From Flavobacteriales bacterium (GTDB lineage: Bacteria > Bacteroidota > Bacteroidia > Flavobacteriales_D > Crocinitomicaceae): 64,000 nucleotides of DNA. The first letter of the stretch is position 1. Each line of letters starts with the position of its first letter. Below are positions 22,016 through 54,005 of the stretch, one piece after another. The notes below the pieces were generated by a model. The model made no database searches. It saw only the letters and a program-made list of their open reading frames with translations, and was not told where the DNA came from. A program made the translations under genes and the position numbers. Location of the stretch: positions 19,501-83,500 of the forward strand of contig JADFAL010000030.1 of assembly GCA_015665275.1 (NCBI GenBank), written 5' to 3'.

Positions 22016-22465
22016 TTAAAAGGGCAAATCGTCCTGATCCTTTTTGATGATGTCGTCCACTTTTGAAGGTGCTTCAGGTGTCCCTTGAGAACTGTATGGT
22101 GCCTGTTGCCCTTGCTGCGCTTGGTCATTTCTTGAACTTAAGATTGTCAATTCGTCAGCAACTACCTCTGTTGTGTAGCGTGTATTCCCTTCTTTATCTT
22201 GCCATGATCGCTTTTTCAGCTTTCCTTCCACGTACACTTTTGCACCTTTCTTTACGTATTTCTCGACAACCTCTGCTAATCCACGCCAAACCACGATATC
22301 GTGCCAGTCTGTATTTTCAACGCGCTGTCCTGTATTGCGATCAGTATAGGTTTCAGAAGTAGCTATGGGGAAGTTGGCAACCGTTGCTCCATTTTCAAGA
22401 TGACGCACTTCGGGATCTTTACCGAGATTACCAATTAGAATTACTTTGTTTACGCTTCCTGCCAT
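22016..22465 (-). CDS. ssb: Single-stranded DNA-binding protein
   Basis: 149 residues. An OB-fold domain at residues 1-108 (VNKVILIGNLGKDPEVRH) is followed by a Gln/Pro-rich linker and the acidic partner-binding tip DDLPF. Protects ssDNA and recruits repair and replication proteins. It sits between mutY and gldE, the usual Bacteroidota arrangement, with a 40-base gap from mutY. Confidence 0.96.
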   Translation of the reverse strand: MAGSVNKVILIGNLGKDPEVRHLENGATVANFPIATSETYTDRNTGQRVENTDWHDIVVWRGLAEVVEKYVKKGAKVYVEGKLKKRSWQDKEGNTRYTTEVVADELTILSSRNDQAQQGQQAPYSSQGTPEAPSKVDDIIKKDQDDLPF

Positions 22466-52650: not shown

Positions 52651-53037
52651 TTAAAACGGCAAATCATCATCTTCTGATGCATCCGTTCCTCCGGAAGGCA
52701 TTGGAGATGCAGCTGGATCCAAATTCATATCTGAAGGTCCACCTTGAGGCATTCCCTGACCCATTTTCTCAATGCGCCATGCATCCAAAGTATTGAAGTA
52801 CTTCACTTCTCCCTGAGGGCTCGTCCACTCGCGACCGCGCAAGTTAAAAGAAACTTCTACCGTTTCTCCTTCTGTCATTCCGTCAATCATAGAACACTTG
52901 TCCTGAACGGCTTGGAACATGATATCCTGTGGATACATGCTTGAAGAATCTGTAATTACGAATTCACGCTTTGCAAACTTTTCGGTAACCTGAACTGTGT
53001 CTTTTATTACTTTAATTTGTCCTGTTAATTTGAACAT
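52651..53037 (-). CDS. DUF3127 protein, OB-fold-like, with SSB-type acidic tail
   Basis: 128 residues. The N-terminal domain (MFKLTGQIKVIKDTVQVTEKFAKREFVI ... VEVSFNLRGREWTSPQGEVKYFNTLDAWRIEK) matches DUF3127 and looks OB-fold-like. A Pro/Gly/Met linker leads to DASEDDDLPF, nearly the same tip as the SSB protein in this window (DDLPF). In SSB this tip docks repair and replication enzymes, so the protein may bind nucleic acid and recruit the same partners; that is inference. Monocistronic with its own terminator. Confidence 0.82.
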   Translation of the reverse strand: MFKLTGQIKVIKDTVQVTEKFAKREFVITDSSSMYPQDIMFQAVQDKCSMIDGMTEGETVEVSFNLRGREWTSPQGEVKYFNTLDAWRIEKMGQGMPQGGPSDMNLDPAASPMPSGGTDASEDDDLPF

Positions 53038-53073: not shown

Positions 53074-53970
53074 CTATCCATTGTTGAATGCCAATAATGT
53101 CATCCAAGCTTCGTTTAATTTATCTTCTTGCAAAAGAACCTTTGCTTTTACGTGCAATTCGCGCTCTAGTTGTGAAGGATTGTCTTCTAAAGATACGAAT
53201 AAATCACTCAATTCCAGAAGTTTGTGTTCGTTAACGTCTGTCTCGTTGGGGAATTCTACAATTCCTGCCAACTGCCCCAAATCGTTCGCAGAGAGTATTT
53301 CACTCGAGCGAATATCCTCGGGAATGGCGTCGTATCCAATTCCAACGCTTGTAATTGGTTTTGTGATTTCGAACATGGAATTTTCGTCAGCACGGCAATA
53401 CCAGTTGCCTCCCATTCGAGATACCAAATCAATTTTCTTTTGATCGATTAACCCGTTTTCGTCCAACAATTCTTCGCGAATATGAATGCGTTGAACTTCG
53501 CAAATCACCAAGTTTCCGGCACCTCCTTGATCACCTAATTCTTTTACTTCGATTACCTTGCATTCGAATTGTACAGGTGCTTCCGCAACGCGTTTCGGTC
53601 GGATGGTTTCCGATGGAATGCCGGTTAAACCAGACTTTACAAATTCATCTACTTCAGGATCGAAAGGAGAACTGGCCAAACTCATTTGTTGCACCATGTC
53701 GTAATTCACCACATTGATCACTACCTCAGGTACAACCTTTACATTGTTATAGGTGTCCTTTGTTGTATTCGTGCGTCCGCTTCTGGCTGGTGAAAAAATC
53801 ATCACAGGAGGATTGGCGCTGAATACATTGAAGAAACTGAACGGTGCCAAATTGTCGTTGCCATCTGCGTCCACAGTGGAAGCAAAGGCAATGGGACGCG
53901 GGCCCACAGCACCTAGCAAGTGCTTGTGAATCATTGGGACAGGAAGATCTTTCGGATCAAAAGTTACCAT
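53074..53970 (-). CDS. Flavin reductase-like FMN-binding protein
   Basis: 298 residues from ATG 53970 (MVTFDPKDLPVPMIHKHLLG). The split-barrel FMN-binding domain is recognisable by GPRPIAFASTVDADGNDNLAPFSFFN and NPPVMIFSPARSGRTNTTKDTYNN. The C-terminal ~90 residues are extra helices. The track's TTG start at 54000 lies inside a TAnnTTTG promoter box and is rejected. Likely reduces flavin or a flavin-dependent substrate with NAD(P)H; substrate unknown. Not linked to a monooxygenase gene here. Confidence 0.85.
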   Translation of the reverse strand: MVTFDPKDLPVPMIHKHLLGAVGPRPIAFASTVDADGNDNLAPFSFFNVFSANPPVMIFSPARSGRTNTTKDTYNNVKVVPEVVINVVNYDMVQQMSLASSPFDPEVDEFVKSGLTGIPSETIRPKRVAEAPVQFECKVIEVKELGDQGGAGNLVICEVQRIHIREELLDENGLIDQKKIDLVSRMGGNWYCRADENSMFEITKPITSVGIGYDAIPEDIRSSEILSANDLGQLAGIVEFPNETDVNEHKLLELSDLFVSLEDNPSQLERELHVKAKVLLQEDKLNEAWMTLLAFNNG

Positions 53971-53997
53971 ATCGTTCGTGCGTTGAATTGCAGAATG

Positions 53998-54005
53998 CAA
54001 AGGTA
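53998..54005 (-). promoter_or_regulatory. -7 promoter box for the flavin reductase
   Basis: TACCTTTG on the minus strand, an exact TAnnTTTG match 27 bases before the ATG at 53970; it decides that start. Confidence 0.55.

Follow-up and report, generated by a model that had tools for sequence, protein, structure and literature searches.

The window, i.e. the whole stretch of 64,000 nucleotides analysed here, carries at 52651-53037 a gene for a protein of 128 amino acids (Table 1). The coordinates given in the preliminary description are correct, but the open reading frame runs on the minus strand; the plus-strand frame is interrupted by four stop codons. Its product matches the Pfam family PF11325 (DUF3127) over residues 4-90 with an E-value of 2e-26 and 92.2 bits, against a gathering score of 27 bits. 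In addition, the PHROG_4932 profile, annotated as 'single strand DNA binding protein', covers the full length of the protein (residues 3-128, E 5e-34). The sequence, MFKLTGQI...GREWTSPQGEVKYFNTLDAWRIEK, continues into a Gly/Pro/Ser-rich linker and ends in SEDDDLPF, a tail that matches the KKDQDDLPF end of the canonical single-stranded DNA-binding protein (SSB) of the window, as had been pointed out in the preliminary description. The SSB gene itself is matched by PHROG_44, likewise named 'single strand DNA binding protein' (E 2e-57), and is the best PF00436 match of the genome. Copies that are 98% and 96% identical to the DUF3127 protein exist, the latter in a Fluviicola MAG, which places the window in a Fluviicola/Crocinitomicaceae genome. 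The hairpin behind the stop codon is absent from the output of the automatic terminator scan. Outside the window, three tandem SSB paralogues without a tip were observed in the same genome (G000:C57:13960-15021; L353, L356 and L359; here and below, G, f, g and L are arbitrary labels for genomes, families, genera and loci).

Table 1. Features of the DUF3127 locus and the SSB gene used for comparison.
Feature	Position	Strand	Basis
DUF3127 (PF11325) gene, SSB-like OB protein, 128 aa	52651..53037	-	Pfam and PHROG_4932
OB-fold domain, residues 1-92	52762..53037	-	AlphaFold2, Foldseek PDB, tail-free hhalign
OB elements: E2-16, E22-30, E37-44, helix 45-51, E59-72, E78-91		-	
Linker, residues 93-120, disordered, fast-evolving	52678..52761	-	pLDDT <50 over most of 95-123; entropy
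SSB-type acidic C-terminal tip SEDDDLPF, residues 121-128	52654..52677	-	Sequence, conservation, synonymous codons
Flavin reductase-like gene, upstream, 36 bp gap	53074..54000	-	PF01613, E 6e-19
Terminator-like hairpin GGCTGTC..GACAGCC with T-run, just past the stop codon	52604..52630	-	Read from sequence; weak
Canonical SSB of the window, 149 aa, tail KKDQDDLPF, tip 22019-22033	22016..22465	-	Comparison protein

When the tails were compared across the phylum, the tip proved to be present in most family members, contrary to one of the two outcomes that the preliminary description had set down as refuting its proposal. Of 85 chromosomal DUF3127 proteins, taken from 84 Bacteroidota genomes, 80 have an acidic-x-Pro-Phe end, as do 71 of 80 copies on viral contigs. 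Among neighbouring ORFs, 8 of 2154 have such an end, and two of these are themselves DUF3127, leaving six (about 0.3%). This background, together with the family-wide conservation, rules out a chance tail. A scan of the window's whole genome for the codon pattern of [DE][DE]xPF followed by a stop returned three sites, and the real genes among them are two, those of SSB and DUF3127. Among 81 close homologues, the tip is encoded by different synonymous codons (four for Pro, six for Leu, two each for Asp and Phe) with the amino acids almost fixed, and this nearly exclusively synonymous change indicates purifying selection on the tip. Column entropy amounts to 2.9-3.7 bits in the linker versus 0.3 bits for the last two residues. 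The xPF tip is lost in family f10, where in 4/4 genomes DUF3127 has an acidic end of the DVDDD type without PF. In family f15, the tips read DDCPF, GDAPF or GDMPF (L004, L009, L012, L013, L018, L022, L023, L025 and L027) and the SSBs keep DDLPF; residue -3 of DUF3127 drifts independently of SSB in this family. Two irregular loci were also seen: a tandem pair of DUF3127 genes whose first member has a diverged tip, EDGGVPF (L088:4625-5384, in one Crocinitomicaceae-like genome), and a gene lying in two frames, apparently through a frameshift that is either real or derived from the assembly (G077:C4:116703-116967, L165).

The AlphaFold2 model, computed from a 64-sequence alignment, shows a five-stranded OB barrel of the order b1-b2-b3-a-b4-b5, with the helix between b3 and b4. 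The pLDDT of the OB block is 93-97 (about 94 for the domain), and disorder follows beyond it. The OB-fold-like domain and flexible linker that the preliminary description had proposed ahead of the tip are thus both seen in the model. In the Foldseek search of the PDB, bacterial SSBs make up 48 of the best 50 matches, with a probability of 1.00 and TM-scores of up to 0.76 by target length; the other two are chains of a trypanosome RNA-editing complex. Viral fold matches are other DUF3127 proteins and SSBs, and the only PDB sequences that score with the DUF3127 family profile are SSBs.

An early iterative profile recruited SSB with an E-value of about 1e-11, but was set aside, since part of this score comes from the tail and linker that both families have. 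To rule out the shared tail as the source of the SSB match, profiles of the domains only were compared. In this tail-free hhalign comparison, residues 41-86 of DUF3127 align co-linearly with residues 57-103 of SSB (P 5e-6, probability 86%), whereas the best of 52 control families reached a P of 0.0065. The tail-free profile and fold tests rule out a convergent tail on an unrelated domain. Of the two origins that the preliminary description had left side by side, convergence and shared ancestry, the latter is favoured: DUF3127 is a divergent SSB relative by common ancestry of the OB domain, since this domain aligns with SSB without the tail and its fold matches are nearly all SSBs. The main difference from SSB in the global alignment is that 11 residues are deleted in the b2-b3 region, and the long ssDNA-wrapping loop is missing. 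The window protein gave no match to PF00436 at the Pfam gathering score of 26 bits, and this family touches only 4 of 64 DUF3127 homologues, the best with an E-value of 0.0076, under the cut-off. DUF3127 is therefore filed here as a relative of SSB and not as a PF00436 member.

On the putative nucleic-acid face, position 71 of DUF3127 aligns with a Trp of the solved SSB chain 7f25_A, which corresponds to Trp88 of E. coli SSB in the usual numbering. This position is aromatic in 82 of 85 chromosomal copies, and each of the 67 distinct viral copies has Trp there. Furthermore, the chromosomal copies have Arg at R69 in 80/85, Tyr or Phe at Y35 in 81/85 and Trp at W87 in 83/85 cases. The comparison of stacking aromatics with SSB covers position 71 and Y35 only, as other positions cannot be aligned safely. 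Such conserved aromatic and basic positions fit with ssDNA binding and would be compatible with it, without amounting to proof.

In a phylum-wide sample of 148 genomes, 84 contain PF11325, and so do 220 of the 247 genomes of the window's class, which was taken as Bacteroidia because the window belongs to a Fluviicola relative. The absence from 64/148 phylum-wide genomes implies that DUF3127 is not essential everywhere. The gene is usually single-copy and coexists with SSB in the same genome. Its chromosomal neighbourhood is composed mostly of housekeeping genes with few of DNA metabolism; the flavin reductase is assigned by Pfam, and aat, alaS and purD are putative names given by eye from sequence. 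The flavin reductase-like gene has the same position relative to DUF3127 in 77 of 80 Crocinitomicaceae-like loci, as well as in 16 other genomes, which probably reflects no more than a shared transcription unit. In seven family f15 genomes, a gene for an RNase_T-type exonuclease lies directly downstream of chromosomal DUF3127.

On viral contigs, DUF3127 is embedded in DNA metabolism. An exonuclease gene is located upstream, of the PHROG_5715 type in 32 loci and of the YqaJ/RecE type in 17, and a BT4734-like primase gene downstream in 35 loci; the ends of the viral DUF3127 gene often overlap or nearly abut the flanking genes. In Flavobacterium phage 11b, DUF3127 is found near Erf. No canonical SSB was detected in the three complete DUF3127-bearing phages examined, which leaves DUF3127 as their sole SSB-like gene. 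In 39 of the 80 viral loci (e.g. L203), the gene one position upstream of the exonuclease-DUF3127 pair encodes a conserved phage protein of about 166 aa (PHROG_21613), which from its location is a candidate ssDNA annealing protein or replication factor.

In E. coli, SSB that lacks the tip, or only its terminal Phe, no longer binds its partners, and the loss is lethal; a change of the penultimate Pro results in the ssb-113 phenotype (PMC10164576). The DUF3127 tip keeps both of these residues needed by E. coli SSB partners (PMC10164576), which is counted in favour of an SSB-Ct role. Comparison of the two tips within genomes is consistent with this role. In families f20, f22 and f25, the SSB tip has Ile or Val at -3, and the DUF3127 tip has likewise Ile or Val in 8/8 genomes; where SSB has Leu at -3, DUF3127 has Ile or Val in 2 of 51 genomes. 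At the family level, this co-variation corresponds to 3/3 vs 0/11 (P 0.003), although those families may be related to each other. The co-variation would point to a partner pocket shared by SSB and DUF3127, as supporting rather than decisive evidence.

In some lineages, DUF3127 retains the tip and SSB has lost its own. Each of five species of genus g5 has exactly one SSB gene, and the tip is gone in 5/5, with ends including SELNPEDNE, SELNPEDHT, SDLNPEDND and GDELSADEEED. DUF3127 was found in four of these species and ends in DDLPF in 4/4; the fifth genome is 89% complete. In genus g19, the genomes of which hold several SSBs, several canonical SSB tips have decayed (DDQAY, HLNAEDY, DGMSY, DNMGF), and every complete DUF3127 copy ends in DDLPF. 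The SSB tips of family f4 are eroding (DDLSF, DDLIF, DISL, DLKF), with a DLPF end on 6/6 DUF3127 copies read. Similarly, the sole SSB of G059 ends in GGSHTE and its DUF3127 retains EDLPF. As to the genomes without DUF3127, the SSB tip is intact in 14/14 of those with a single SSB, and 48 SSBs read from 51 DUF3127-less genomes carry it, the three exceptions having a second, unread SSB. The events of SSB-tip loss in the phylum sample are too few for a significant association with DUF3127 presence, and the comparison serves as a natural experiment only. A frameshift or assembly error behind the missing tips was rejected: in G007, G059 and G099, the tip is not recovered in any other frame, and all five species of genus g5 share the loss. 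The pattern in genus g5 suggests that the recruiting role may have moved from SSB to DUF3127.

SSB-type tips were also encountered on other proteins of these genomes. The codon-pattern scan of G007, the sole SSB of which lacks the tip, returned two genes only, DUF3127 and that of the exonuclease VII small subunit, XseB (L337, G007:C2:520681; PF02609, E 2e-14), which ends in TENEDLPF. A 262 aa protein of G059 with a marginal match to Abi_C, the C-terminal domain of abortive infection proteins (L345, G059:C1:1514268), has the SSB-like end SSLDDVPF, which may be due to chance or belong to a defence protein sensing the replication machinery.

The literature searched contained no ssDNA-binding, oligomer or partner data for DUF3127. 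From the comparative evidence, we consider it highly probable that DUF3127 is a divergent, ssDNA-binding and partner-recruiting SSB relative, which acts beside SSB in Bacteroidia and as the phages' own SSB. The compact OB domain would bind single-stranded DNA without the long b2-b3 hairpin, and the flexible linker would bear an SSB-Ct tip, with which the protein would dock to those pockets of DNA-repair and replication enzymes that SSB also uses. In Bacteroidia, DUF3127 would then be a second, near-universal ssDNA-coating and recruiting protein alongside SSB, and for replication and recombination, phages of Bacteroidia hosts would have it as an SSB of their own. What the analysis shows directly is the fold class, the homology, the conserved tip and the phage and, in part, host context; ssDNA binding, shared partners and a partial transfer of the hub role are inferred. 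Counting against this view are the score below Pfam's SSB cut-off, the chromosomal neighbours mostly outside DNA metabolism, the lost xPF tip of family f10 and the absence of the gene from 64 of the 148 phylum-wide genomes.

Among the alternatives, a restart factor resembling PriB, i.e. an SSB-derived OB protein dedicated to one complex in replication restart or with an exonuclease and using its tip for one partner, fares best, although we regard it as improbable. PriB is indeed a small SSB-derived OB protein, and a usually single-copy SSB paralogue that lacks the b2-b3 insertion, adjoins an RNase_T exonuclease gene in family f15 and is patchy outside Bacteroidia would suit such a specialised part. 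However, PriB is generally known to lack both linker and C-terminal tip, the freely ending SSB-Ct of DUF3127 co-varies with that of SSB and so implies a shared pocket, and three phages have DUF3127 as their sole SSB-like gene. The identity of the two tips within the same cell could also be read as competition, with DUF3127 antagonising SSB for its partners and damping recruitment; this is very unlikely given that aromatic and basic residues are maintained on the side facing the nucleic acid, that phages have the gene inside their own replication and recombination cassettes, and that there would be nothing to antagonise where the SSB tip is lost. An RNA-binding, cold-shock-like OB protein with an acidic tail acquired by convergence is just as hard to credit, for although OB folds often bind RNA and most genes next to the chromosomal copies belong to metabolism or translation, the tail-free homology and fold matches point to SSB specifically and the phage setting is one of DNA recombination and replication.

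Placed among known systems, the favoured SSB relative shares with bacterial SSB (PF00436; E. coli SSB, B. subtilis SsbA, Salinibacter SSB 5odn) the OB fold, the disordered linker, the (D)DDxPF tip and the aromatic residue at the Trp88-equivalent position. In contrast to SSB, its domain comprises about 90 residues without a long b2-b3 hairpin, and it forms a separate family in the same genome. SsbB of B. subtilis and S. pneumoniae likewise accompanies the main SSB as a second paralogue that binds ssDNA, but is a close one; B. subtilis SsbB is not known to have a C-terminal tip, whereas the divergent DUF3127 has one. PHROG_4932 of Bacteroidota phages represents the same family with the same tip, although PHROGs covers the phage copies only. 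RefSeq phage records label DUF3127 copies as SSB, and the tooticki6-1 record cites PF11325; one paper describes the SSB of Pantoea phage AAS23 as having SSB and DUF3127 domains, and this was the only mention of DUF3127 in the literature searched, which yielded no paper about the chromosomal family. The phage proteins are therefore already known as SSBs by annotation, and the chromosomal family is still named DUF3127. What is new here is that the tip is conserved throughout the class, that the homology holds in a test independent of the tail, that the two tips co-vary, and that there are lineages with a tip on DUF3127 and none on SSB.

The SSB C-terminal tip is regarded as the universal and essential docking hub of bacterial genome maintenance. 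It is possible, and we propose this only tentatively, that in Bacteroidia ssDNA coating and the recruitment of repair enzymes are shared with DUF3127 and in some lineages handed over to it, so that DUF3127 would become the main or sole SSB-type hub. This reading derives from the tipless sole SSB of genus g5 and the many decaying SSB tips of families f3 and f4, where the DLPF end of DUF3127 is perfect. Combined, these results make a DUF family directly testable and would explain why Bacteroidota phages carry their own copies, and they are relevant to anyone who relies on the rules of E. coli SSB, or on inhibitors of the SSB tip, when working with Bacteroidota. If true, a second near-universal tip-bearing protein, together with lineages whose SSB is tipless, would mean that the hub function is separable from the main ssDNA-coating protein.
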